A stretch of 64,000 nt of DNA from Hujiaoplasma nucleasis (lineage in GTDB: Bacteria; Bacillota_I; Bacilli_A; Izemoplasmatales; Hujiaoplasmataceae). The stretch covers positions 1,550,001 through 1,614,000 of the forward strand of contig NZ_CP051151.1 of the NCBI RefSeq assembly GCF_013745115.1. Reading direction: 5' to 3'. Under the pieces are notes generated by a model. That model was not told the DNA's origin and ran no database searches. It was given only the letters and a program-made list of their open reading frames with translations. This document shows positions 21,873 through 38,928 of the stretch, piece after piece (within the stretch, counting starts at the first letter, position 1; the number at the start of each line of letters is the position of its first letter). A program made the translations under genes and the position numbers.

Positions 21873-22349
21873 ATGAAAATTAAAATAATCTCAGTAGGAA
21901 AGATAAAAGAAAAATATTTTAAAAATGCTATCGATGAATACTCAAAAAGGATTAGTAAATATTCAAAACTAGAATTTTTAGAAGTTCCTGATGAAAAAGC
22001 ACCAGAGAGTTTATCTGATAAAGATATGGAAATCATTAAGGATAAAGAAGGAGAAAAAATATTATCTAAAATTAACAATGAATATATTATAGTTTTAGAT
22101 ATTTTTGGTAATCAATTAGATAGTATAGACTTATCCAAAAAAATAATTGATATTTTTTCTTATCAATCTTCTGATATAGTATTCATAATAGGAGGATCAT
22201 TAGGTTTATCAAAACAAGTTATAGATAAAGCAAATTTGAAATTATCTTTCTCTAAATTAACATTTCCTCATCAATTAATGAAGGTATTATTATTAGAACA
22301 AATATATCGTTCATTTAGAATTATTAATAACGAGCCGTATCACAAATAG
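21873..22349 (+). CDS. rlmH: RlmH, 23S rRNA pseudouridine-1915 N3-methyltransferase
   Basis: 158-residue SPOUT methyltransferase acting on the 70S ribosome. It contains FIIGGSLGLSK, the family SAM loop, and ends with FPHQLMKVLLLEQIYRSFRI plus NNEPYHK. The C-terminal codons GAGCCGTATCACAAATAG (22332-22349) are the att core of the island that follows. The same gene (orfX) is the SCCmec target in staphylococci. The reading frame is intact. Confidence 0.96.
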   Translation: MKIKIISVGKIKEKYFKNAIDEYSKRISKYSKLEFLEVPDEKAPESLSDKDMEIIKDKEGEKILSKINNEYIIVLDIFGNQLDSIDLSKKIIDIFSYQSSDIVFIIGGSLGLSKQVIDKANLKLSFSKLTFPHQLMKVLLLEQIYRSFRIINNEPYHK

Positions 22350-22395
22350 TTGCAACTTATGATATAAACACCATAACAAAGCCCTTTTAGGTTTT
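22330..22395 (+). repeat. att-like repeat R1 (within rlmH)
   Basis: The core GAGCCGTATCACAAATAG is the rlmH C-terminus. It is followed by TTGCAACTTATGATATAAAC, then CATAACAAAGCCC and a degenerate terminator. The tail closely matches R3 and R5. Confidence 0.8.
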
Positions 22396-22416
22396 TTTAT
22401 TTATTTCAGGGATGAA

Positions 22417-22514
22417 ATGATTTTTATTTAGATTTATGATATTCTAAATTAATAAACCGTAAGGGGATAACTATTCAGTCCTCAAATGAGGGCTGTTTTT
22501 AAGGAGAGGAATAT
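22417..22514 (+). promoter_or_regulatory. Promoter and shared leader of the PHP-ATPase cassette (L1)
   Basis: The -35-like ATGATT (22417-22422) and -10 TATTCT (22440-22445) are 17 bases apart. They precede a leader containing ACCGTAAGGGG, the small hairpin CCTC-AAAT-GAGG (22480-22491) and AAGGAGAGG. It is nearly the same as the leader before the HamA-like gene at 29280-29364. Confidence 0.65.
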
Positions 22515-24995
22515 ATGAAACACATAGATGAGTTTGTCAAAATTGATTTGCATATTCACAGTGAGGCAAGTAAAACTAAAAGTGGTGATGAAGGCTTGGT
22601 TTCGGGTATGAACAAAGATAATATCGAAACACTGTTGGATAAATTAGATGATAATAAAATAAATGTATTTTCAATCACAGATCATAACACATTTGATTTT
22701 GAACTTTATAAGTTGATTAAAGATACAATTGCACAAGGCAGTTACGATAGTATCAAAAATATTCTACCTGCAGTAGAATTTGATTTAGAGTTTGACCCAG
22801 AATTTTATGAGGTTGTAGAGAAAGAAAGTGAAATTGAACTATCTGAAGATAAAAAATGTACCATACATGTAATATCAATCTTCAATGATAATAATCAGGA
22901 TGAGCTAAGTAAACTTAGCGAAAACTTGAAGGAATTGTACAAAAAGAAACTTAATATTCTACATCAAGAGAGTATTGAAATAGGTGTGGAAATTGCCAAG
23001 AAGAATATAAACGTTGTTTTTAATGAAAACGACTTAAGTGAGTTATTTAAAAGCATTAATGTTAATTTTTTGCTTATAGCTCACCAAAAAGGACCATACA
23101 TGAATAGAAGCATGAAAACTGAAAACGATTTTACAAACTTGAGTTATCAGATTAAGGAAAAATTGCTTTTTATTAAATATTTTGATGCTTTGGAGTTTAA
23201 ACAGCTCAGATCAAACATTTCACTTAAATCTTATTTAAGAGGAAAAGCAATAAATTTCATTTCCGGATCTGATTGTCATAATTGGAATTTTTATCCTATG
23301 AATAGTGAAAAAGAACTTAATACACACTCGAAGTTGATTCAGAAAGAAGATAATAGAAGATTCGAATATACATATTTGAAGTGTGATTCTTCTTTTGAAG
23401 GATTAAAAATAGCACTAACTGGAGACTCTGATTCTAGAATTTACTTGTCAGAACCGAATGTGGAAGATAGAGTTTATTTAAAGTCTTTAGATGTGAAAGT
23501 CTCAGGGAATCCAATTAACATTCCTCTTTCTTATGGTATTAATGCGATTATAGGTAACAATACAAGTGGCAAAACTTTATTGATTAATACTGCATTTGAT
23601 AAATTCAACGAACATGGAAACGGAGAGCCATTTTGTAGAAAGTATGATTTTTGGCCAAGCAAACTTAATTTGAATGAGTTTGACTATGAGTTTATTGCAC
23701 AAGGCGACATTGTTAATAAATTTTCTAAAGATAAGGAACTAGAGAGGGAGTTTGATGGGAAGTTTAAGGATATAGATTATTCAAAGTATGATCAAATCAT
23801 AGAACAGGCATCAATAAGGTTGCTTAGAAAAATTAAATATAATACAGACGTTAAAAATGCTCAGAATGGACTAGATATTGATATTAAATTACCAAGCAGA
23901 AAATTAAAACCTTATCAGCTTGTTATAACTACTAGTCCTGCTAAAGTTGTTATTAGAAATACTCGAGTAATTTCACAAATTGAAGCTGTAATAGATAAAC
24001 TATTTTTAATCTACCCAACAGTAAAACCACTTTTTCACAAAGTGATACATGAGATTTTACAGTTAATAATTCCGGTATATAGATATTATACGAAACAGAA
24101 AATTGATGACAATAAGTCAAAAGCAATGGTTGATGCATTTAGACAAAGTATCTTGGATTATAATAATAAGACTAGAGAAAATCAAAGTCAGTATTCAGAT
24201 ACGAATCAATTCTTGAATGTAAATGATTCTAAAATTGTGATTTACAATAACTTTATCAATTTATTAAAATTGAAGGATGTTGTGTTGTCACCACCCATCA
24301 AAGAAGGAACAAATTATAACCCTAAGGATGCGGTGAACACAGAAGGTGATTTCAAATTTATTAAGTCGTCAGAAAACATTTTGAATGACAAGACCTTGAA
24401 AGAAATCCTTGAATCTCCATTTAAAGCTAATTATAAGTATGAAAACATATTGCAAATGACAGTAGAACAGGCTATTGACGCTTTAGTGCAAAACAGTACC
24501 GATATAGTTAACTCTACTTCATTAAGTGAAAGATATAGAGCTCTATTACAAAGAAAAATTAGTAGTGATTATAGAAAAGTTAAGCTTAGCATAGTTGATA
24601 GTGAAAACGGATTGAAAAATCAAAGTCCAGGCAAGAATGCGATAACATATTTACGATTAAAGAATATATCAAATCAAGAAAATATATATGTCATTGATCA
24701 ACCAGAAGATCAAATAGGACCGACTGATATAAAGAAAAAGCTAAAGTCAATATTGAGAAAACTAGCTTCTAAATCTCAAATCATAATGATAACACATAAC
24801 CCGTATTTAGTTGTAAATCTTGATGTTGACAATGTAATACAACTAGACAACACATCAGGTAAAATGGAGGTAAGCTTTGGTGCATTATATCATAAAGATA
24901 ATGGTAATATAATTGACATAGTAGCAAATTCCCTTGAAGGTGGATATGAAGCAATTAAAGAGAGGATGGATAGATATGAAAGAAATAATCATTAA
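22515..24995 (+). CDS. PHP-domain / SMC-like ATPase (TrlF-like), putative defence effector
   Basis: 826 residues. The N-terminal PHP domain has the metal motifs DLHIHSEAS (His13, His15) and ITDHNTF (Asp56, His57) and later SGSDCHNWN. A C-terminal ABC/SMC-like ATPase is split around a long helical region. It has Walker A GNNTSGKT (347-354), Walker B and switch VIDQPEDQ (726-733) and H-loop MITHNP. The layout resembles TrlF-family PHP-ATPases found in defence islands. I infer ATP-gated hydrolysis of a nucleic acid or nucleotide by the PHP site. It overlaps a small partner gene by 20 bases. Confidence 0.78.
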   Translation: MKHIDEFVKIDLHIHSEASKTKSGDEGLVSGMNKDNIETLLDKLDDNKINVFSITDHNTFDFELYKLIKDTIAQGSYDSIKNILPAVEFDLEFDPEFYEVVEKESEIELSEDKKCTIHVISIFNDNNQDELSKLSENLKELYKKKLNILHQESIEIGVEIAKKNINVVFNENDLSELFKSINVNFLLIAHQKGPYMNRSMKTENDFTNLSYQIKEKLLFIKYFDALEFKQLRSNISLKSYLRGKAINFISGSDCHNWNFYPMNSEKELNTHSKLIQKEDNRRFEYTYLKCDSSFEGLKIALTGDSDSRIYLSEPNVEDRVYLKSLDVKVSGNPINIPLSYGINAIIGNNTSGKTLLINTAFDKFNEHGNGEPFCRKYDFWPSKLNLNEFDYEFIAQGDIVNKFSKDKELEREFDGKFKDIDYSKYDQIIEQASIRLLRKIKYNTDVKNAQNGLDIDIKLPSRKLKPYQLVITTSPAKVVIRNTRVISQIEAVIDKLFLIYPTVKPLFHKVIHEILQLIIPVYRYYTKQKIDDNKSKAMVDAFRQSILDYNNKTRENQSQYSDTNQFLNVNDSKIVIYNNFINLLKLKDVVLSPPIKEGTNYNPKDAVNTEGDFKFIKSSENILNDKTLKEILESPFKANYKYENILQMTVEQAIDALVQNSTDIVNSTSLSERYRALLQRKISSDYRKVKLSIVDSENGLKNQSPGKNAITYLRLKNISNQENIYVIDQPEDQIGPTDIKKKLKSILRKLASKSQIIMITHNPYLVVNLDVDNVIQLDNTSGKMEVSFGALYHKDNGNIIDIVANSLEGGYEAIKERMDRYERNNH

Positions 24996-25491: not shown

Positions 25492-25914
25492 ATGGGCAAT
25501 TATGTTAAACATCATTACATCCCCCAATTTATTTTAAAAAGATTTTCACACGATAATAAAGTGAATGTTTTTAATCATATTAAGTTTTCATTAACAAGTA
25601 TATCAATAAGAAACCTATTTATGGTTGAGAATCTTTATGACTATTATGTTTATGAAGATATTAAAGTGATAGAAAAAGAGTTGGCTTCTAAAATTGAGTC
25701 CCCAATGGGACAAATCTGTAGTCGAGTAGTTAAAGAGTTAAAGGAAAAACCAAAAAACATAACCTTTACTAGAAAGGAACTATTGATTATTAAGAAATAT
25801 ATGATGTTGCAGTTTTATAGAACAGAAGGCAATATGACATATTACATTGGCTCTAATATTAGTAGAAAGAATGAATTATCTAAGTATAATATTAATCAAG
25901 ACTGTTGTTTTTAA
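25492..25914 (+). CDS. DUF4238 protein, apparently C-terminally truncated
   Basis: 140 residues starting GNYVKHHYIPQFILKRF, the hallmark opening of DUF4238 proteins, which are usually about 300 residues. It ends abruptly after about 140 residues with YNINQDCCF. Homology to the full-length copy at 26656 (IKHHFIPQFILRNF) covers the N-terminal half only, so this is either a naturally short form or a deletion remnant. Function is unknown. It is preceded by a 147-base gap with no gene. Confidence 0.55.
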   Translation: MGNYVKHHYIPQFILKRFSHDNKVNVFNHIKFSLTSISIRNLFMVENLYDYYVYEDIKVIEKELASKIESPMGQICSRVVKELKEKPKNITFTRKELLIIKKYMMLQFYRTEGNMTYYIGSNISRKNELSKYNINQDCCF

Positions 25915-26655: not shown

Positions 26656-27681
26656 ATGTCAGAACCAATTAAACATCATTTTATCCCACAGTTTATATTG
26701 CGTAATTTTTTAGATGAAAACCAAATAAACTATTGGAACATGAAAACTGGGAAGTTTGAGAGAAGAAATCCAAAGAGTATTTTTATGAGAAAGAATCTAT
26801 ATAAGGATGTTGAAAATCATCCTGATGAGATTATGACTATAGAAAAGAAATTTGCATCTTTAGAACGCGAGGTATCAGAGTTAATCAATAATAAAATACT
26901 TGATAAAAAGGAAATACGAATTACAAGAGCAGATAATGAGTTACTGAGAAGATTTTTGTTTTTACTAGGTTTTAGAAGTGAAAATAGGAAACGTCAGTAT
27001 CGCGATGAATTATTTGATCAATTTACAATTGAAACTTTAAAACCATTTGTCAAAAATAATAATTATGTAGATCTTTGGCTAAGAGAGTTAAATGAGATGC
27101 TAGATTTGGCATCTTTCGGAGAACTACAGAATAATAAAGAAATTTCAACTGTTATTAAGATGGATTTGCAAAGTGAGTTAAGAGACTACTATATGAGTTT
27201 TGTTGAAGCCAGAGGGCAAGAGTTTATCCTTTCGGATATTTATCCAACTACTGAGATTTTCCCTATTGATATATCAACTAAAACCAAAATCGATTTACAC
27301 GCCTTTTTCCCAATATCTCCAAATAGAGTACTAATCCTTAATTATGTTATTTTCAGAAAAGATAGAAAAGTAGATGAGCCAATGATAAATGCAATGAGAA
27401 ATTTTTCTAGAGTTGGTCCTACAATAATTGAAATTCCAAGAGTTAAATATGTTAAAAGAGGTACTTTTAGTCAAGAAGACGAGTATACTTATACAGTTAG
27501 AAAGATTTATGAAGATGAAGTATCTTATATCAATAGTCTTTACTTAAACGAGGCCAAGGACGGGTTTATATTTAATGACTTTAGTAAAGTTTTGAAATCA
27601 ATTCAAAACTACAATAATGTTGAACAATACAAAAGGAAAAACGCTTTTGAAGGAGTTGAAGATATCATAAATAATTCATAA
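26656..27681 (+). CDS. DUF4238 family protein, full length
   Basis: 341-residue soluble protein opening with IKHHFIPQFILRNFLDENQ, the conserved DUF4238 signature; the C-terminal half includes a beta-rich HAFFPISPNRVLIL segment. The domain is common in mobile and defence regions but has no established biochemical role that I know of. The HH-x-P-Q-F motif conserved with the copy at 25492 would be a candidate active or metal site. It is the last gene before att copy R2. Confidence 0.75.
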   Translation: MSEPIKHHFIPQFILRNFLDENQINYWNMKTGKFERRNPKSIFMRKNLYKDVENHPDEIMTIEKKFASLEREVSELINNKILDKKEIRITRADNELLRRFLFLLGFRSENRKRQYRDELFDQFTIETLKPFVKNNNYVDLWLRELNEMLDLASFGELQNNKEISTVIKMDLQSELRDYYMSFVEARGQEFILSDIYPTTEIFPIDISTKTKIDLHAFFPISPNRVLILNYVIFRKDRKVDEPMINAMRNFSRVGPTIIEIPRVKYVKRGTFSQEDEYTYTVRKIYEDEVSYINSLYLNEAKDGFIFNDFSKVLKSIQNYNNVEQYKRKNAFEGVEDIINNS

Positions 27682-27763
27682 TTAGTTGCACCTATTTACG
27701 ATACAACGAGCCGTACCATACCATAAGTAATTGGAACATATGATATAAAGCGCATAACAAAGG
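27680..27763 (+). repeat. att-like repeat R2
   Basis: The core GAGCCGTACCAT plus AAGTAA (27708-27730) carries a five-base tandem duplication (ACCATACCAT); without it the core would encode EPYHK-stop. The left flank AGTTGCA and ATACAAC matches R4. The tail ATATGATATAAAG then CGCATAACAAAGGC is conserved, but the terminator is lost. Confidence 0.7.
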
Positions 27764-27892
27764 CATATACATCGTTTAGCATTTACAATGCATGATTCAT
27801 ATATGGTCAGAATTACCTGTCTTTTATAATTGTTCACTATATAGTATAATTGAACAGGAAGAGATGATACTTCAGACATAGGAGGGGTTTGA

Positions 27893-29152: not shown

Positions 29153-29250
29153 TAATATGTTCCAACTAAAAATGAGACAACGAGCCATACTATAAGTAGT
29201 TGCGGCTTATGTCACAGACACCATAACAAAGCCCTTTTTGGGCTTTTTTT
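29153..29250 (+). repeat. att-like repeat R3
   Basis: The core GAGCCATACTATAAGTAG (29182-29199) encodes EPYYK-stop. The tail GTTGCGGCTTATG and ACACCATAACAAAGCCC matches R1. It ends in a strong hairpin, AAGCCC-TTTTT-GGGCTT, with eight following T. Confidence 0.78.
29229..29250 (+). terminator. Rho-independent terminator within R3
   Basis: AAGCCC and GGGCTT pair around a five-T loop, followed by a T run. It insulates segment B transcripts from the segment C promoter. Confidence 0.75.
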
Positions 29251-29268
29251 ATTATTTTCAGGGATGAA

Positions 29269-29364
29269 CTGACTTATAGAAATGTTTATGATATACTGAT
29301 TTTAGAAACCGTAAGGGGAAAACTATGCTGACCTCAAATGAGGGCTGTTTTTAAGGAGAGGTAT
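29269..29364 (+). promoter_or_regulatory. Promoter and shared leader of the Hachiman-like cassette (L2)
   Basis: The -35 CTGACT (29269-29274) and -10 TATACT (29292-29297) are 17 bases apart. The leader has ACCGTAAGGGG, the CCTC-AAAT-GAGG hairpin (29332-29343) and AAGGAGAGG. It is near-identical to L1 at 22440-22514 although the downstream genes are unrelated. Confidence 0.7.
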
Positions 29365-30141
29365 ATGTTTGACGTAACTACTGAAAAATATAATGGAGTA
29401 GAATTTCATTTTATAAAATATGAAAAATTTACAACTAGATTGAAAGATTATTTAGATGAATCACTTTCAACAATTTATAAAGGTGATTTCACTCGTGATA
29501 TTGAAGTTGTAAAAAACATGTTGAGAAAATTCTTTTTAAATAAGGCTAAATCAACTACTTTATATGGTTCAATAGCTGAACTGTTAATTCATTTATTTTT
29601 AAAGAATCAAGGCGCATTACAACTATCACTTTTTGGTAATCTTGAGGAGATTAGAACAATTAAGAAAGGTTTTGATGGATATTATTTACACAAGAATATC
29701 GAGTGGATTATGGAAAGTAAATCTAGTAAAAGTTCAACAAAAGGTGTTACACATTTAAAAAATATTAAAGAGTCTCATTCAGATATAGAAATGAAAATAA
29801 ATGGTAGTCGTCCTGAAATCAACCCATGGGAAAATGCATATAATCATGTGAGATTAATAGAAATTGATATAGACAAGAGTATTTATAACAATTTAAAAAG
29901 GATGTCGGATCTATATGAGAAAGATGTATTTCAAGAGATTGAAAAATATAACATTATTAACTCATCTACTATAGGGTTTAAATCGAATGAAAATATTTTT
30001 GATAAGTTTAGTGTAAATGACTTTGATAATTTTATTGCCCAATCCAAATTTAAAGATATGATTATCATTTGTATTGAACACAAAATTATTGTTGATATCT
30101 TGAGGTACTTCAATATAGAAAATGGTGATACATATGAGTAA
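29365..30141 (+). CDS. HamA-like (DUF1837) nuclease of a Hachiman-type defence system
   Basis: 258 residues. It has the DUF1837-type PD-(D/E)xK arrangement: Glu72 in YGSIAELLIHLF, Asp104 in KKGFDGYY, then Glu117-x-Lys119 in WIMESKSS. HamA partners a helicase in Hachiman and AbpA in AbpAB, and here a large helicase gene overlaps by eight bases. The start at 29365 is set by alignment of the leader with that of the PHP-ATPase and by AAGGAGAGG; an in-frame ATG at 29338 lies inside the leader hairpin and is rejected. Family assignment is from motifs and gene order. Confidence 0.72.
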   Translation: MFDVTTEKYNGVEFHFIKYEKFTTRLKDYLDESLSTIYKGDFTRDIEVVKNMLRKFFLNKAKSTTLYGSIAELLIHLFLKNQGALQLSLFGNLEEIRTIKKGFDGYYLHKNIEWIMESKSSKSSTKGVTHLKNIKESHSDIEMKINGSRPEINPWENAYNHVRLIEIDIDKSIYNNLKRMSDLYEKDVFQEIEKYNIINSSTIGFKSNENIFDKFSVNDFDNFIAQSKFKDMIIICIEHKIIVDILRYFNIENGDTYE

Positions 30142-32527
30142 AAATTTAAAACAAGATTTATCAAACCTTAAAAGAAATAATATGTTCCAAAATATCATGA
30201 AAAAATTATGTTTATCTAAAGAACTAGAGACTACTGAAGAAGTTTTTATACTGAATTTTGCAATGATCCTTATAGAAATGTATAAGAAGTATAACAAAAA
30301 AACATTAATTGAGTTCTCGTACTTCGTAATTTTGAAATATTCACTTACATCAAAAAATTATTTACCGTTATATGATTTTTCTTATGAAATGGGATTTTAC
30401 CCAATAATTGATGAGATTTTCAAACATAAACTAGTTGATTTCGATAGCCCTAGACAAGTAATTTACCATTCTTTAGTTAATGATTACAAGGATGATTATG
30501 TAAATACTTTTGAGCAAAAAGAGTCTAAAAGCAACTTCATTAAGTCTAAAGAAAAAGAAATTAGTTATACTGCACCTACATCATATGGCAAAAGTGAAGT
30601 TATGATATCTCTGGTAAAAGATGGAAATTATAACAATGTTTGTATTATTGTCCCCTCTAAATCATTGTTAGTTCAGACTTTCAATAGTCTTAAATCTTCT
30701 GAATTAAATTATAAATTGATTCTACATGATGAAATGTACAAGCCTGATGAATCTAGGAAGAATCTCTTTATTTTAACTCAAGAAAGGGCATTACGCTTAT
30801 TTGATAAATGGAAACCAGACTTTGACATCATTTTTGTTGATGAAGCACATAATTTGCTGGACTTAGATTCAGAGAGAAGGTCTGTTTTGTTAGCTAGATT
30901 TCTCAAAAAGTATAAGAAATCTAGAAATACTAGAATTGCATATCTTTCACCTTTTGTGGCTAAAACGTCTAGTTTGAAGATGAATGATGTAGAAATTTCT
31001 AATTATAAGATTGAATACAATATGAAAGAACCAGAATTGTATTTGTACAACAAACAATGTGAAACTTATTATTACAATCGATTTACTAACGAATTTTACT
31101 ATATAAAAACTGACTATGATTCGTATTTAGAATATATCATTGAAAATTCTAATCAGAAGAACTTTGTTTATATTACTCAACCAAAGAAGATTGAAGAGTT
31201 TGCCCATCAGTTAATTAAACATTTACCTGACATTGAATCAAATGATTTAGCTGAACTTATTTCAACAATAGAGGGTGAAGTCGATACTAATTATAATTTA
31301 GTAGAATGCTTAAAAAAAGGGGTAATATATCTTCATGCTCAAATGCCACAAATTATAAAAGAGTTTTTAGAGAGTAAGTTCAAAGAACTTTCAGATTTGA
31401 AGTGTGTAATAGGTAATAGTGTTGTTTTAGAAGGAATTAACATGCCTGTTCAAACTATGTTTATTTTGTCACAAAGTTATCTAAACGAGAAGAAAGCTCT
31501 TAACCTCATAGGAAGGGTGAATAGATTAAATTTTATTTTCAATTCAAAAGAGAATAATCTTGATATGCTTGTGCCAAGAATTCACTTTGTAGATACTGTT
31601 TACTATAATTCAAGAACATCAAAGCTAAGTAATTTCATGCTAAGATTACGTTCAACAGATTTTGATGATGACATTAAGAATCCTTTACTCGACAATTTCG
31701 AAAACATTACTGAAAAAGAAAGAGTAATACTACATGAAGAGGAATGCTTAGATGAAGATACAAAAGAAGATGTTATCAAAAATCTTGAGAAAACATTAAT
31801 CAAAAATGGAGTAAGTAAATTTTATAAGAACTTTGAAGTTAGTTTAAAAAGAATTTACAATAATATTGTGAAATTAAGAGATAATTATGAGAACATATAT
31901 GACAGGCTATATGCAATATTTATTCGATCTAATGAGAATAATACTGTGTATGGAGTAAAAAGGTTGCAAAAACCCGAGGCTAGAATGTTCTACCATTATT
32001 ACTTAGCTAACAACTATTTCAAAGGTCTAAAAGAGAATATTAGATTGCAATATACATTTTATAAAACAAAAGTTAATGATGATTACAAATTGTATGTTGA
32101 TAAGTTCGGAGAGATTTCATATAGAAGTGATGATTATGAAGAATCCTTCAAGAAATGCTATATTAATTTAAAAGGGAAATCTGATAAGGATTTAAAAAAC
32201 ATTGCAATTAGAAAAATAAGTGTGGAAGAAAAATTTATCAAGTATACATTGGGATCATTTGTAGATGCGATGTATGAATTAGGTTTAATTGTTCTTGAGG
32301 AATACAACTATTTCCACTATGGTACAACGAGATTAGAAGAATTAGATCTTATATATAGGGGAATACCATTTTATCTTGTAAAAGCTATAACAGATGACAA
32401 ACAAATTGAAAACATTATTATAGATAATTTTGGGAACCTATTAGCGAATCAAATATTTTTAGAATATCTAAAGACAAAACCAGTTCTTTTTAGATTTGAA
32501 GTAGAAAAATATATCATGAATGTTTAA
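30134..32527 (+). CDS. HamB-like superfamily 2 helicase
   Basis: About 797-residue DExH helicase. Motif I is APTSYGKSEV, motif II FVDEAHNLL, motif III AYLSPF, motif V VVLEGINMPVQT and motif VI LIGRVNRLN. A long helical C-terminal region follows. In Hachiman the helicase senses damaged or abnormal DNA and releases the HamA nuclease. The ATG at 30134 overlaps the hamA-like stop (ATGAGTAA); an ATG at 30122 is possible but has no ribosome site. Confidence 0.78.
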   Translation: MSKNLKQDLSNLKRNNMFQNIMKKLCLSKELETTEEVFILNFAMILIEMYKKYNKKTLIEFSYFVILKYSLTSKNYLPLYDFSYEMGFYPIIDEIFKHKLVDFDSPRQVIYHSLVNDYKDDYVNTFEQKESKSNFIKSKEKEISYTAPTSYGKSEVMISLVKDGNYNNVCIIVPSKSLLVQTFNSLKSSELNYKLILHDEMYKPDESRKNLFILTQERALRLFDKWKPDFDIIFVDEAHNLLDLDSERRSVLLARFLKKYKKSRNTRIAYLSPFVAKTSSLKMNDVEISNYKIEYNMKEPELYLYNKQCETYYYNRFTNEFYYIKTDYDSYLEYIIENSNQKNFVYITQPKKIEEFAHQLIKHLPDIESNDLAELISTIEGEVDTNYNLVECLKKGVIYLHAQMPQIIKEFLESKFKELSDLKCVIGNSVVLEGINMPVQTMFILSQSYLNEKKALNLIGRVNRLNFIFNSKENNLDMLVPRIHFVDTVYYNSRTSKLSNFMLRLRSTDFDDDIKNPLLDNFENITEKERVILHEEECLDEDTKEDVIKNLEKTLIKNGVSKFYKNFEVSLKRIYNNIVKLRDNYENIYDRLYAIFIRSNENNTVYGVKRLQKPEARMFYHYYLANNYFKGLKENIRLQYTFYKTKVNDDYKLYVDKFGEISYRSDDYEESFKKCYINLKGKSDKDLKNIAIRKISVEEKFIKYTLGSFVDAMYELGLIVLEEYNYFHYGTTRLEELDLIYRGIPFYLVKAITDDKQIENIIIDNFGNLLANQIFLEYLKTKPVLFRFEVEKYIMNV

Positions 32528-32539
32528 AAGGAGTTAACT

Positions 32540-33298
32540 ATGGTTGATTATGAAAAAAGAAGGTACGCAATTTTAAAAGAATATTTTAAAAATAAAAATA
32601 GATATATATACGAGAAACACATAGTGTCTATTTTAGATGATCTAAAAGAAATGTTTGACAAACATAGTGTAGTTATGGAACAGGGAACCATATTATATAG
32701 AAGTCAAATTGGTTCTGAATGGGTTGAAGAAAATGGTAATGGGCAGTTACTACCTTATAATAAGGCTAGAATGTATCCAAGAAAAAGACTTGCTCGAGAA
32801 GGAAGAGCAAACCCTAAGGGAATTCCCTACTTATATTTAGCATCCGACACTGAAACATCACTCAATGAGGTTAGAGCATGGCCAGGACAGGAAGTGTCAA
32901 CGTGTACATTTACAAGCGAAAAAGAGCTAAGATTAGTAGATCTAAGTAAAAAAAGAGAGTCAGGACTAGCATCAATGGTTATCAATATCAAAAAGGGTAA
33001 GATTATGTCCAAAGATTCTAATGACAACTTACTTGGTGAAATTAATCAGGCTTTTACTACTCCAGTGAGAAATTCGGATGATTCATCAGATTATGTAGTC
33101 ACACAAATTATATCAGAACTTATAAAAACAGAAGGATATGATGGGATTGTGTATAACTCTTATTTTACAAAAAGTGGTAAGAATATTGTGATTTTCGATA
33201 GTTCTAATATGATCATTAAGAATGGTCTTGTTTTTAGAATAAATGCATTTAATATTGAATATGAGCAAATTTCGAATGCTGTTCGATATAAAAATTAA
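32540..33298 (+). CDS. RES-domain protein (putative NAD-degrading toxin) in the Hachiman-like operon
   Basis: 252 residues. RES-domain features are visible: ILYRSQIG (Arg), GRANPKGIPYLYLASD, ETSLNEVRAWPG (Glu) and GYDGIVYNSYF plus KSGKNIVIF (Ser region). RES proteins of toxin-antitoxin systems degrade NAD+. Here no antitoxin gene follows, and the gene is twelve bases behind the helicase with an AAAGGAG site, so I infer it is a third component or abortive effector of the system. Confidence 0.75.
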   Translation: MVDYEKRRYAILKEYFKNKNRYIYEKHIVSILDDLKEMFDKHSVVMEQGTILYRSQIGSEWVEENGNGQLLPYNKARMYPRKRLAREGRANPKGIPYLYLASDTETSLNEVRAWPGQEVSTCTFTSEKELRLVDLSKKRESGLASMVINIKKGKIMSKDSNDNLLGEINQAFTTPVRNSDDSSDYVVTQIISELIKTEGYDGIVYNSYFTKSGKNIVIFDSSNMIIKNGLVFRINAFNIEYEQISNAVRYKN

Positions 33299-33809: not shown

Positions 33810-34352
33810 ATGGAGAACTGCGTGGATTACAATATTATTAAAGAAATTTTAAACGGAGATAAAAATCAATTTAATCAACTCATAGATAAGTACTACTATG
33901 AGATCTTTAAGTTTACATATAATCAAGTGAACGATGTCGAAAAGACAAAAGATGTTGTTCAAGAAATATTCATGAGGATATATAAAAAGCTAAGCAAATA
34001 TAATCCTAAGAAAGCGTCTTTTAGAACATGGATCTATAGGATTGCGAATAACTACTGCATTAATTACCATCGAGACCATCATAAAGATCAACATCTTGTT
34101 CTTCATGGAGAAAGAATATCGGATTCTGAAGATATATTGAACAACTTGATAAAAAAGGAAGATGTTTCATATATTTTAGATCTTATGGAAAAAAACTTGA
34201 GTCAAAGAAACTACAAAATACTGATTTTGCATTTTTATAGCGATTTATCGCAAACAGATATTGGAGAAACTATGAATCTTGCGCCTAAAACAGTTAGAAA
34301 TATTGTTTCAGAAAGCATTCAAAAAATTAGAGCATTAGTCGGAGGTGAATGA
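33810..34352 (+). CDS. ECF-type RNA polymerase sigma factor
   Basis: 180-residue sigma-70 family protein of the extracytoplasmic-function class. Region 2 is visible (KYYYEIFKFTYNQ, KDVVQEIFMRIYKKL, SFRTWIYRIANNYCINYHR). Region 4 has the helix-turn-helix LSQTDIGETMNLAPKTVRNIV. An in-frame GTG at 33822 with TGGAGA upstream is a credible alternative start. It overlaps no gene but is one base short of the GGAGG-led anti-sigma-like gene, as in sigma/anti-sigma pairs. It ends in TGA. Confidence 0.88.
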   Translation: MENCVDYNIIKEILNGDKNQFNQLIDKYYYEIFKFTYNQVNDVEKTKDVVQEIFMRIYKKLSKYNPKKASFRTWIYRIANNYCINYHRDHHKDQHLVLHGERISDSEDILNNLIKKEDVSYILDLMEKNLSQRNYKILILHFYSDLSQTDIGETMNLAPKTVRNIVSESIQKIRALVGGE

Positions 34353-34353
34353 C

Positions 34354-37300
34354 TTGTATAATTATAAAAAAACATGTTTAATCACAGATCAAGATATTCA
34401 TTTATTTTATAATGAAGAAAAGAATAAAATTATGTCCAGCATTAATGAAGTGAAATCAGAAAATCTTTATATATTTCCCTTTATTAAATATGCTTGGATG
34501 CCTGTTTTACTGATAATTGTTAGCCTTAGTCTTATTTTGTTTATCAAACCAATTACAGGAGATGATGATAGGCAGATTTTTAAAAATAATTTTCATTTGG
34601 TGAGTCAAAAATTATCAGATATAGTTGATCATGCTAGTATCAATGATTTAAGTAAGCACAGAACAAATCAGATGAAAGAATTATCTTATTCCAAATTTAT
34701 AGATAGACAATCCCTCTTAGATGCATATCTTAAAGGTGAAACAAATATTGTATATGATGACTATTTAGAGCAACTTTTAACAACCAAGGACTTTATAGAA
34801 GACATTGAAGATATTGTTTTGAATTCATCGAATTGGCAGTTAGATGAGGACATTATCCCTGATGAAAATATAGATGTATCCTTTAGGTTCCTTTTGTCTA
34901 GTGATGACTATATTGTGATCAAAAAGAGGAGTGGCCAAGAATATTCAACAATAAAACTTGGTATAGAAAGTAATCAACTTATTTATTATGATATCCATTA
35001 TAGTTACGATTTTTCTTCGGATTTCATTAATAATGAAGCATCACTAAATTTTAATTATTTTCATTTTATTGAAGATGATCAAGCTGTATATATTAATAGT
35101 CTAACTGATCTATTTACATTAAGATATACATCAATTATTGATGGATCTCAATTCACAATTAGTCGGGGTAATCAGGTTGTTGAAGGACTAGAATCCTCAG
35201 ATGGCTATAGCTTTTACTCATATGACTCAGAGGCTTTGGTCACACGATACTTTCAAGTCGTGGATGAAGTTATTGTATCTGAAACCTTTGATGTTTATAG
35301 TAACCATGGTTTGTTATACCGGTATGAGGACCTAGATTATTCTAGTGACTTAACTTACTTATATGTTAATATAGTGCCGGCTCTAGGTTGGGACTACTTG
35401 TGCATTGAAGACACAGATGATCAGTTAGAAGGTGTATATTTAGAAGATGGGTCTCCTTTATTTACGGGTCATATCTATTATACATATACACCAAAATATG
35501 GATATGCTGCTTTTAAACAAACCATTGAAAAAAATGATTTCTCTGATGACCATTTTAAATTAACTGAGTATGGAATGAATTTATCAGAAGAAAAGGCAAG
35601 CATTGAGTATTTAGATTCAATTAGGATATCAAACTTTGAACAAGCGAAAGAAGATTTCTTTGTCGAGGGAATAGATTTCTTTACAGAGGATTTAAAATCA
35701 GAATTATACAATTATATCGACAAAGATCTATTGATTGAATTTAATGCTGAAAGCAATTCTGGGGAGGATATTGTTACTGGAGATGTTGAGGCTTTTGAAA
35801 ATGAAATATTTGATTTTGAACAAGCTTTTTCATTAAAAGGGCATTTGGTTATGGAAAGTGATGTAACAATTGCTGTTTATGACGGCGACCACCTTATCCA
35901 AAGTCAAGTGAACAGTCAACATACTAAATACGATATATTAGATATGTATTTAGAAAGAAGAACATTTAGTGGTCAATTGTTTGGGACGCAAGAAATCATC
36001 ATGGCTTATGAGGGACAATTAGTTTCATTTACAAATGATGATGGACCTGTTACTGATTTTGAAATTGTGAGTCAGTCAGCGAGTCCTCAAATTTTTATGG
36101 AATATTTAATGACCGAATATCCTGAATTGGATTTATTAGATGGGGTGAACCATATTGAGTCTCAAGGACAGGGTGTTTATAAAGTGACCTTAAATGATGA
36201 TTTTTTTGGAGACGAGATCAATATGGATTTGGTTTTCAATCAAATGGGCATTGATGGGTTCTCAGAGGCAATGATTGAAGCCATCTATACCTTTAATCAA
36301 AATCATCAATCATATGATGTTGTACTTACAATCACTGGGCTGAAAACAATTGAAGGCGCCTATGATGTGACATATATAGAAACAACCAATGTTTCTATTG
36401 AATCTTTTATAAAAAAGAATCCTTTAGAATCACTTATCTTTTTTAGGTTACCGCAAACAAGGGATGGTATTATATTTGATTCAAATATCAATCAATTAAA
36501 TGTCTATTATATTAATGAGGGTGAATCATGGATGAGGTTGTATTTAGAAGAGGGTGTCTATTCCTCGAGTATTTATGGAAGTTCTAATAGCAACTTATCT
36601 TATGTCTTAATTGATGAGAATGGACAAATAATTGATGATAGTAACTATCGATTTGAAATTGGTGCGTCTGGTTATTATTACTATAAGTTCAACTCTTCTG
36701 TTAAACAGCGAATAGATACAAGGATTAGTGAAAACCCTTATCCTAAGAACCAAGATATCACAATGGATCAAAGTAATGATCTCATTGAATTGTATAGTCA
36801 ATTAGAGACGGATACTTATAACTTGTTTACCAATATAGATGATAAAGAGAGGGTATTGCGTTTAACATTAAATCCTATAAATCAAGATTTTTTAGTCATC
36901 AACGAATTAGATGCTTTGGGAGATTACATCAACGATTATTTTTTCGAAAATTATGTAAATGTTGTTTATATTTTAATCCCTGAGAATACTAGAGTTGATT
37001 TTGAGATTTCAGGTATGTATCAAGGTCAATTTTCTTTTGCTTATGACTACCTATATCCTCCAGTATCTGAAGAATCGGATGTAAGATATGAAGTTGATAA
37101 TCTTGATGATTTTCCTCATGCTATCATGAACGAATATGTGACAAAGGTGAGGTATGATTTTAGTATTGAAGAAGAAGGTTATTATAAGTTAGATAAAAAT
37201 ATGATTACTTTTGGACTTTATCTAGATTTAAAAATGGCCCTTTATGATTCCGAGGGTACAAGACTTAGAATTTCGGACCATGCCATATATGAAACATTGC

Positions 37301-37383
37301 AAGCAGGTAACTATTATATAGAGTTTTATTTTATAGAAGCAGATAGTGGCTTATTAATATTAATGCCCACTGTGAATCGATAG
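34354..37383 (+). CDS. Giant membrane-anchored ectodomain protein, putative anti-sigma factor
   Basis: About 1009 residues. A cytosolic N-terminus of some 40 residues (with IHLFYNEEKNKIMSSINEV) precedes one TM segment (YAWMPVLLIIVSLSLILFI) and a roughly 940-residue acidic, Tyr/Asp-rich extracellular region without a domain I recognise. The last third resembles pre-peptidase-like beta domains (EEGVYSSSIYGSSNSNLSYV, AGNYYIEFYF). Gene order with the sigma factor suggests an anti-sigma whose ectodomain senses a signal. TTG at 34354 has GGAGG eight bases upstream; a GTG at 34345 overlaps that site. Confidence 0.6.
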   Translation: MYNYKKTCLITDQDIHLFYNEEKNKIMSSINEVKSENLYIFPFIKYAWMPVLLIIVSLSLILFIKPITGDDDRQIFKNNFHLVSQKLSDIVDHASINDLSKHRTNQMKELSYSKFIDRQSLLDAYLKGETNIVYDDYLEQLLTTKDFIEDIEDIVLNSSNWQLDEDIIPDENIDVSFRFLLSSDDYIVIKKRSGQEYSTIKLGIESNQLIYYDIHYSYDFSSDFINNEASLNFNYFHFIEDDQAVYINSLTDLFTLRYTSIIDGSQFTISRGNQVVEGLESSDGYSFYSYDSEALVTRYFQVVDEVIVSETFDVYSNHGLLYRYEDLDYSSDLTYLYVNIVPALGWDYLCIEDTDDQLEGVYLEDGSPLFTGHIYYTYTPKYGYAAFKQTIEKNDFSDDHFKLTEYGMNLSEEKASIEYLDSIRISNFEQAKEDFFVEGIDFFTEDLKSELYNYIDKDLLIEFNAESNSGEDIVTGDVEAFENEIFDFEQAFSLKGHLVMESDVTIAVYDGDHLIQSQVNSQHTKYDILDMYLERRTFSGQLFGTQEIIMAYEGQLVSFTNDDGPVTDFEIVSQSASPQIFMEYLMTEYPELDLLDGVNHIESQGQGVYKVTLNDDFFGDEINMDLVFNQMGIDGFSEAMIEAIYTFNQNHQSYDVVLTITGLKTIEGAYDVTYIETTNVSIESFIKKNPLESLIFFRLPQTRDGIIFDSNINQLNVYYINEGESWMRLYLEEGVYSSSIYGSSNSNLSYVLIDENGQIIDDSNYRFEIGASGYYYYKFNSSVKQRIDTRISENPYPKNQDITMDQSNDLIELYSQLETDTYNLFTNIDDKERVLRLTLNPINQDFLVINELDALGDYINDYFFENYVNVVYILIPENTRVDFEISGMYQGQFSFAYDYLYPPVSEESDVRYEVDNLDDFPHAIMNEYVTKVRYDFSIEEEGYYKLDKNMITFGLYLDLKMALYDSEGTRLRISDHAIYETLQAGNYYIEFYFIEADSGLLILMPTVNR

Positions 37384-37395
37384 GAGGTAGTAGTA

Positions 37396-38928
37396 ATGCG
37401 TTTATTAAGTAAAATGATAATGTTTAGTCTTGTTTTTCTACTTTTGTTTACAGCTCTTGCATGTCAAGAAGTGTTAGAGACAAGTCAAGAGATAACGAAT
37501 CTCGAAGAAACGACAAGTAACGAAACAACAACTGAACAAATAACAACTGAACAAATAACAACTGAACAAATAACAACACCTATCCCCTCAACAACCACAG
37601 AAATGGTGACTGAGAGCATTTCATATGAGATAGAAAACGACCTAACAACATCATTGGGAATTTATCGATTTGACGGTAATTTTGTGAATCCAGAGTATCA
37701 TCCCTTTATAGGTAATTTAACTTTTACTTTAGAAATCAATGATGAGAATTATCGTAATTCAACGTATTTTGTTGTCGTAAGAGAGTTGAACTCACCAAAT
37801 TATGATTTTTTACAAGCTTTTACTATTGACGAAAGTCAAGTATCTAGGTTTCATTCCATCGATTATACACCTGGAAAAGAAGTAATTGTTGCTAAAATAG
37901 ATGGAACGGTTTATAACGATCATGTTTATCTTGAACCTGTCGCATCTTTGCTTGTTGAAGATTTGATGGCTGATTCAAGAAATACTTTATCTGGATACAA
38001 CATGATTGGAAATTCTTTAAGAGATATAGAAGTGGATGAAACGCCATATTTAGAGATTACCCTAACAGCTATCGACCCAGAAAGAATCATTTCTTCAATA
38101 AAAGCAATGGTATATTATCCAGAATATGGTTTAGTGCTTGACACAAAAGATTTTGAAATCAGCGAAGAAATGTATTTGGATGATGGACTCTCAATAGAAA
38201 ACATTATCTTTGATAATCTTCCACCTGACAAGACATTCACAATCATTTATTTTATGACTGGAAATGATGGTGTAGATGACTTTGAAGACGTTTTAGTAAC
38301 TTCGAAGAGAATGACGACATCAAAGTATGCACTTGGTTCAGGTATCACAAATAGCTATCCAGGTTTTTGGGGTGTCATTCATAATCTTGAACTCAATGAA
38401 ACATATACTAGGATTAATATACATTATGTTAATGATCAAGTTTTATCAATCGATGATGAATACTTAACATCCAGTTTAAATGTATATGATGAGACTGGTC
38501 ATTTAGTTAAAAATTATCCATTAGTTGGTCATATGTCTTATATAGATATAGATAATGAATATTTGGATGATTATTATAGTTTAAGAATCGAATGTGATCA
38601 AGTAGATGATCTCTTAGCTGTATATCATATCAGATATGGTTTTGATGGTTTAGATTTTATAAATGCAACTTATGCAGAGCAAAATTTACGAGTGAGTTAC
38701 CAAGGAACATGGGTTGAGGTATTATCTATATATATTAAAATTACTCAGGTTGGTGGTGAATCAAATATCATAGAAGTCACTCTCAAGGACTTAGATGAAG
38801 GTTACACTGATATATATTATCCTGAAGGACCTGATGGATATTTTAGTCAATATGACGCTTATATAGAGATCACTTTTATAGGTTTTAAAGGTGAAGAAGT
38901 TCATGTGACTGGATATTCAAAACGATAG
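37396..38928 (+). CDS. Surface lipoprotein with Thr-rich stalk
   Basis: 510 residues. The signal peptide ends FTALAC, giving lipid-modified Cys23 (Leu at -2 rather than -3). A low-complexity Thr/Glu stalk (residues about 38-75) includes three TTEQI repeats, followed by a large beta-rich extracellular region without a recognised domain. It has an AGGAGG ribosome site twelve bases after the ectodomain protein, so it belongs to the sigma-factor operon and may be its target or co-sensor. Confidence 0.68.
   Translation: MRLLSKMIMFSLVFLLLFTALACQEVLETSQEITNLEETTSNETTTEQITTEQITTEQITTPIPSTTTEMVTESISYEIENDLTTSLGIYRFDGNFVNPEYHPFIGNLTFTLEINDENYRNSTYFVVVRELNSPNYDFLQAFTIDESQVSRFHSIDYTPGKEVIVAKIDGTVYNDHVYLEPVASLLVEDLMADSRNTLSGYNMIGNSLRDIEVDETPYLEITLTAIDPERIISSIKAMVYYPEYGLVLDTKDFEISEEMYLDDGLSIENIIFDNLPPDKTFTIIYFMTGNDGVDDFEDVLVTSKRMTTSKYALGSGITNSYPGFWGVIHNLELNETYTRINIHYVNDQVLSIDDEYLTSSLNVYDETGHLVKNYPLVGHMSYIDIDNEYLDDYYSLRIECDQVDDLLAVYHIRYGFDGLDFINATYAEQNLRVSYQGTWVEVLSIYIKITQVGGESNIIEVTLKDLDEGYTDIYYPEGPDGYFSQYDAYIEITFIGFKGEEVHVTGYSKR
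37528..37577 (+). repeat. 15-base tandem repeat in the lipoprotein stalk
   Basis: Three exact copies of ACAACTGAACAAATA plus five further bases. The unit is a multiple of three, so slippage would lengthen the TTEQI stalk without shifting the frame. Confidence 0.9.

Follow-up and report, generated by a model that had tools for sequence, protein, structure and literature searches.

The analysed window is a stretch of 64,000 nucleotides (positions 1,550,001-1,614,000) of the 1.81 Mb single-contig genome of Hujiaoplasma nucleasis, a mollicute-like bacterium of an order that includes Candidatus Izimaplasma; the matches of three relatives (genomes G039, G045 and G080) agree with NQYJ01000014, CAJXVW010000002 and JAASSV010000065. 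Downstream of rlmH (21873-22349, PF02590), att-like copies stand at 22330, 27711, 29180, 33352 and 39055, and the cassettes and their heads are named here R1 to R4. The head elements and cargo genes of R1 and R3, and the R2 head, are on the forward strand. The cargo of R1 is a PHP-ATPase of 826 aa (22515-24995), with weak PDC-M49A matches (6.4e-06 and 7.1e-08) and similarity (2e-13) to the leader-bearing PHP-ATPase of L033, a locus of a related genome (L numbers denote loci and G numbers genomes). The R1 cassette also contains two DUF4238 proteins (25492-25914 and 26656-27681), the first of which is only about half length (PF14022 positions 1-112 of 281). The cargo of R3 is a Hachiman-type operon formed by a 258-aa protein (29365-30141), a HamB-type helicase (30122-32527; PADLOC HamB 1.9e-42, solved anti-phage protein B 8zue_B 4.1e-06) and a RES-domain protein (32540-33298; PF08808, 1.9e-15). 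The 258-aa protein occupies the position expected for HamA, but it has no Pfam, PADLOC or solved-structure match, and its place before HamB is the only ground for the assignment, so that whether it is the HamA nuclease is left undecided. The R4 cassette (33810-38928) holds a protein that by eye looks like an ECF sigma factor, followed by a 1012-aa membrane-anchored protein and a lipoprotein-like protein with a tandem TTE-rich stretch (37504-37578).

The initial annotation reported that the first 185 bases of R1 (22330-22514) and R3 (29180-29364) are homologous although the coding sequences are unrelated, and this observation is confirmed. The two heads align end to end with 82% identity (E 8.7e-46; 81% in a global alignment), whereas the 185 bases on either side are 48-49% alike, which is background, and the downstream proteins are unrelated (BLASTP best E 0.54). 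The pieces that had been named are all present: att tail, AAAGCCC, CAGGGATGAA, promoter, ACCGTAAGGGG, CCTC-AAAT-GAGG and AAGGAGAGG. However, some corrections are necessary. The promoter described as having 17-base spacing scores 9 of 12 in each copy, but at non-homologous hexamers, and the conserved feature is instead an extended -10 (TGATATWCT; TGNTATAAT in relatives), found as TGATATTCT at 22437-22445 in R1 and as TGATATACT at 29289-29297 in R3. The -10 of R1 (TATTCT) is further from consensus than that of R3 (TATACT), while the R1 terminator is stronger than that of R3. Moreover, the hairpin is longer than CCTC/GAGG. In R1 it reads CAGTCCTC-AAAT-GAGGGCTG followed by TTTTT (22476-22500) and is called by a terminator scan, with -12.6 kcal/mol, whereas in R3 (CTGACCTC-AAAT-GAGGGCTG plus TTTTT, 29328-29352) it carries two mismatches, is weaker (-5.3 kcal/mol) and is not called. 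The hairpin had been seen in the initial annotation, but it was not recognised as a second terminator, nor the leader as an attenuator. The Shine-Dalgarno AAGGAGAGG follows directly, at 22501-22509 in R1 and 29353-29361 in R3.

Comparison of 39 heads showed that the 185 bases are composite. The first ~70 bases form the cassette boundary, with the att core at the 3' end of rlmH, its tail and the AAAGCCC terminator in R1 (22330-22400, stem weakened in this copy) and the att copy with tail and AAAGCCC...GGGCTTT terminator in R3 (29180-29246, terminator at 29228-29246). This part occurs in front of many cassettes which have nothing else in common and lack the leader. The promoter and leader occur only in some cassettes, and also far from rlmH att, at L040, L101, L104, L105, L106 and L117. 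The R2 head (27711-27892) offers a contrast, since it has an att-like copy and a promoter reading TTACCTGTCTTTTATAAT...TATAGTATAAT without the attenuator, and other heads have the promoter without the hairpin (L044 and position 14285 of L031, on the minus strand, where the gene is TIR-like by eye). In genome G079 the same leader stands behind an nfo (endonuclease IV)-like 3' end on two contigs with different cargo, AriA-like (L101, about 4193) and Gabija (L105, about 3696), a second cassette-like site, although the nfo name is our reading of the protein end and not a profile match. In the Izimaplasma-group heads L029, L032, L033, L038 and L042, a palindrome of the type GGTC-WWATAT-GACC lies before the promoter (exact in L032: GGTCATATATGACC), where the window heads have TTTCAgggaTGAAA (R1), and it is a possible operator.

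Between the extended -10 and the Shine-Dalgarno lie about 50 nt, comprising a purine strand (AAGGGGA or CAAGGGAG), an A-rich linker, a hairpin with conserved CAGUCC...GGACUG and a U-run that runs straight into the Shine-Dalgarno. The terminator helix was analysed on 34 leaders: 85% of cells are paired, with 17 two-sided changes against 6.4 in shuffles (0 of 500), and slid versions of the helix fall away; the same test on 13 sequences alone had given no clear answer. The purine strand (AAGGGGA at 22461-22467 in R1, where GGGGAU pairs with GUCCUC, and at 29313-29319 in R3, where GGGG pairs with CCUC) can pair with the 5' arm of the hairpin before the 3' arm is made. Its pairing with the 5' arm and loop of its own leader gives -6.81 kcal/mol against -5.94 when swapped among leaders (z -3.9, 0 of 5000). 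Five control pairings (-10 region with arm, linker with arm, 5' strand with 3' arm, 5' strand with Shine-Dalgarno, arm with Shine-Dalgarno) are not significant, the last giving no coupling signal for a switch based on pairing of the arm with the downstream Shine-Dalgarno; a sixth, 5' strand with linker, gave meaningless energies and was disregarded. The leaders are related, and the permutation P is therefore not a strict probability, although control regions from the same sequences show no coupling. Examples of the pairing are AAGGGGA/UCCUCUU, UUGGGGA/UCCUCAA, CAAGGG/UCCUUG, AUGUAGGGA/UCCUUAUAU, GUAAGGA/UCCUUAU and AAAAGGGGA/UCCUCUUUU. In most leaders this helix is the predicted fold of the transcript before the 3' arm exists (median -4.95 kcal/mol), the terminator being more stable (median -8.85 kcal/mol), with 4-8 U in the 8 bases after the stem. 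However, some relatives lack a good terminator (L033 Thoeris, L032 CBASS) or a good antiterminator (L033 16336, DUF4297).

To determine the distribution of the leader, covariance models built from 13 and then from 34 leaders were searched in whole genomes. At E <= 0.001 the second model gives 35 hits in 13 of 90 genomes of the order; most of these sequences were used to build it, but the first model had found them from 13. In 395 genomes of the class and 392 of the phylum it adds only G138 and G241 outside the order, two other genomes of the class. Thus the model is specific and the element is largely confined to one order, with occasional transfer. A near-exact hairpin pattern searched in the order recovered only the two window copies, so that the covariance model was needed. 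In a pattern scan of reference genomes only L048, L054 and L056 are true copies (corresponding to G080, G045 and G039), and no convincing model hit was found in the other eight. In viral contigs an exact scan with the first leader pattern gave two GC-rich hits inside a phage structural gene, attributed to chance, and two further patterns gave none; there was no match in the phage and plasmid record collections searched, and no relevant Rfam match in the window stretch or in six leader loci.

The defence genes directly behind the leader, or second in the operon, include PHP-ATPases (R1, L033), PDC-M49 (L029), HamB (R3), GajA of Gabija (L042, L105, L031), the CD-NTase of CBASS (L032, L042 16130), ThsB of Thoeris (L033), DUF4297 (L033), an AriA-like ATPase (L101), a Tmn/YobI ATPase (L117), PDC-S31 (L030) and, with less certainty, Mokosh-like (L030) and QatA-like (L124) genes. 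Some PADLOC matches are weak (R1 PHP-ATPase, QatA-like) or to a generic helicase part (Mokosh-like). Of 29 first genes scanned, 8 match PADLOC at 1e-30 or better, against 0 of 40 ordinary genes of the window (P 5e-4). However, it must be considered that this compares largely cassette genes with ordinary chromosomal genes, and because cassettes are rich in defence genes anyway, part of the enrichment may be a property of the cassettes, and the count does not prove that the leader is specific to defence. Not all the genes are defence genes: WG-repeat, LRR lipoprotein, MFS, NUDIX and DSP phosphatase genes also carry it.

The initial annotation proposed a fixed cassette head supplying expression, and perhaps common regulation, to swapped cargo, and our data support this proposal only in part. 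A common head supplying expression and probably common regulation to swapped cargo is supported, since the same head occurs downstream of rlmH in other genomes with other cargo; the absence of such occurrences had been set out in advance as grounds for rejection, together with the absence of a transcript from the predicted promoter, whose start was not mapped here. One fixed 185-base unit tied to att is not supported. In a tree of 23 heads, R1 and R3 join at 100/99 support and heads cluster by host genome somewhat more than expected (14 changes against 16.9 for shuffled labels, as low in 1 of 200), while the PHP-ATPase and Gabija heads are scattered and do not group by cargo. Only 2 of 20 inner branches are well supported, so this is modest evidence.

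According to these data, it is likely that the shared part downstream of att is a promoter followed by a compact transcription attenuator, as two mutually exclusive helices, one ending in a U-run, are the classical anatomy of such elements. In this view, RNA polymerase starts just after the extended -10 and makes AAACCGUAAGGGGA, and as the 5' arm of the hairpin (UCCUC.., UCCUUG..) emerges, the AAGGGGA strand can pair with it and form an antiterminator. If that helix is lost or prevented, the 5' arm would pair with its 3' arm and an intrinsic terminator would end transcription directly before the Shine-Dalgarno, so the cargo stays low; if the antiterminator persists, transcription would run into the cargo. 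The default would be partial termination, and the element, travelling with cassettes at rlmH and elsewhere, would keep many unrelated, potentially self-harmful defence genes on a low, releasable setting. Sequence analysis shows the promoter-like, hairpin and U-run architecture, the two covarying exclusive helices and the recurrence before many defence systems, whereas actual termination, and the shift of the balance by a cellular state, are inferences; nothing is shown by experiment, no transcript data were available and read-through in response to a signal was not measured. The trigger is not known; our first guess, which fits best, is altered RNA polymerase elongation or termination during phage takeover or nucleotide stress, and the second is a protein or ribosomal subunit occupying the purine-rich, Shine-Dalgarno-like strand, although a ribosomal subunit would have to act, by reasoning alone, within the short time before the arm emerges.

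Other explanations seem unlikely to us, but should be weighed. The purine strand (AAGGGGA, AAGGGAG) resembles a Shine-Dalgarno and could serve a leader peptide, with ribosome loading or stalling deciding between the two helices. R3 reads ATG CTG ACC TCA AAT GAG GGC TGT TTT TAA with the stop at the cargo Shine-Dalgarno, L040 reads MQSSFTGCFF and stops at TAG before the Shine-Dalgarno, and 11 of 34 leaders have an ATG in the linker. However, 7.3 are expected from shuffles (sd 2.3), which is not convincing, the strongest leaders have ATA or ATT there (R1, L028, L029, L030, L104), and reading frames and lengths are not conserved. The leader might also be only inherited baggage, a good constitutive promoter and 5' UTR hitch-hiking with att, whose hairpin merely stabilises or insulates the mRNA. 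The nearest-neighbour relation of R1 and R3 within one genome, the heads with promoter but no hairpin and the degraded R3 stem favour this, but two exclusive helices covary while control regions of the same RNAs do not, the U-run is kept behind hairpins of different sequence, and the leader is found at non-att sites and in two genomes outside the order.

Least likely in our view, the head could be kept as a DNA exchange handle, with homologous or site-specific recombination between identical heads swapping the cargo. The clustering by host more than by cargo, the att copies at each cassette start and the two G079 contigs with the same nfo-like head and different cargo agree with this. It does not explain the helix covariation or the constant place between -10 and Shine-Dalgarno, and leaders also stand before single genes with no repeat seen nearby; nevertheless, it is compatible with the attenuator as an additional process.

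How bacteria keep dangerous defence genes quiet and release them during infection is poorly known; a 2025 paper says that far less is known about regulation than about defence mechanisms (PMC12255303). If the leader works as proposed, one ~50-nt RNA controls Gabija, CBASS, Thoeris, Hachiman and others in one bacterial group, and the question of what signal arms defence becomes directly testable with one reporter. Very different defences may be controlled by one common RNA switch. A more far-reaching possibility, which we consider improbable but cannot exclude, is that this switch senses phage takeover or host shutdown and releases many unrelated defence systems together, a defence regulon defined by a mobile RNA leader rather than by a protein regulator. 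The leader is also a search tag, since unknown genes behind it are candidate defence genes, though not all will be.

Attenuators shared by unrelated genes have already been described, and our literature searches, limited to open-access text, found no RNA attenuator common to anti-phage systems; what appears to be undescribed here is an attenuator family shared by unrelated defence systems. In the attenuator regulons and mobile attenuators of Naville and Gautheret 2010 (PMC2965389), one conserved 5' terminator with a candidate antiterminator stands before several non-homologous genes and can move with mobile DNA. Those mobile attenuators are explained as 5' or 3' terminators of insertion sequences, the 3' ones exapted after insertion upstream of a gene, and no attenuator regulon built around defence genes is described in that section, whereas here a dedicated promoter-antiterminator-terminator-Shine-Dalgarno unit is kept before defence genes and covaries in both helices. 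As in the SCC and ECC cassette chromosomes (ECC: PMC6222049), insertion is at the 3' end of rlmH, with variable cargo and repeated att copies, and the core TATCA(T/C)AA resembles the TATCATAA motif; rlmH is next to heads also in L031, L032, L034, L035, L036 and L124. However, no ccr gene was found in the R1-R4 cassettes: there was none among the R1-R3 cassette proteins scanned, and all PF07508 matches of the genome lie elsewhere. They include three pairs of adjacent large serine recombinase genes arranged like ccrAB, none at rlmH (G000:C1:83447-85109, 621897-623871 and 1007970-1009960; L156-L158), which could move the rlmH cassettes in trans; the first pair lies near a protein whose N-terminus resembles the leader-bearing CBASS cyclase of L042 (L156:11332-12234). 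A common RNA leader for the cargo is not mentioned in the ECC passages. In ToxIN-type (type III) toxin-antitoxin loci, a terminator also lies between the promoter and the harmful effector gene and limits its expression, but there the leader is a repeat array that is itself the antitoxin, while here there are no repeats and the cargo is unrelated from locus to locus. In the pyrG attenuator of Bacillus subtilis a purine-rich 5' strand likewise pairs with the pyrimidine-rich 5' arm of the terminator, but the G-run is made by reiterative transcription at the start site when CTP is low, whereas here it is encoded, about 10 nt into the transcript. Finally, protein regulators of defence islands (RptR, and the WYL and C proteins cited in PMC12255303) also hold potentially toxic defence genes at a low level; those act through DNA-binding proteins, whereas here the proposed control is in the nascent RNA.
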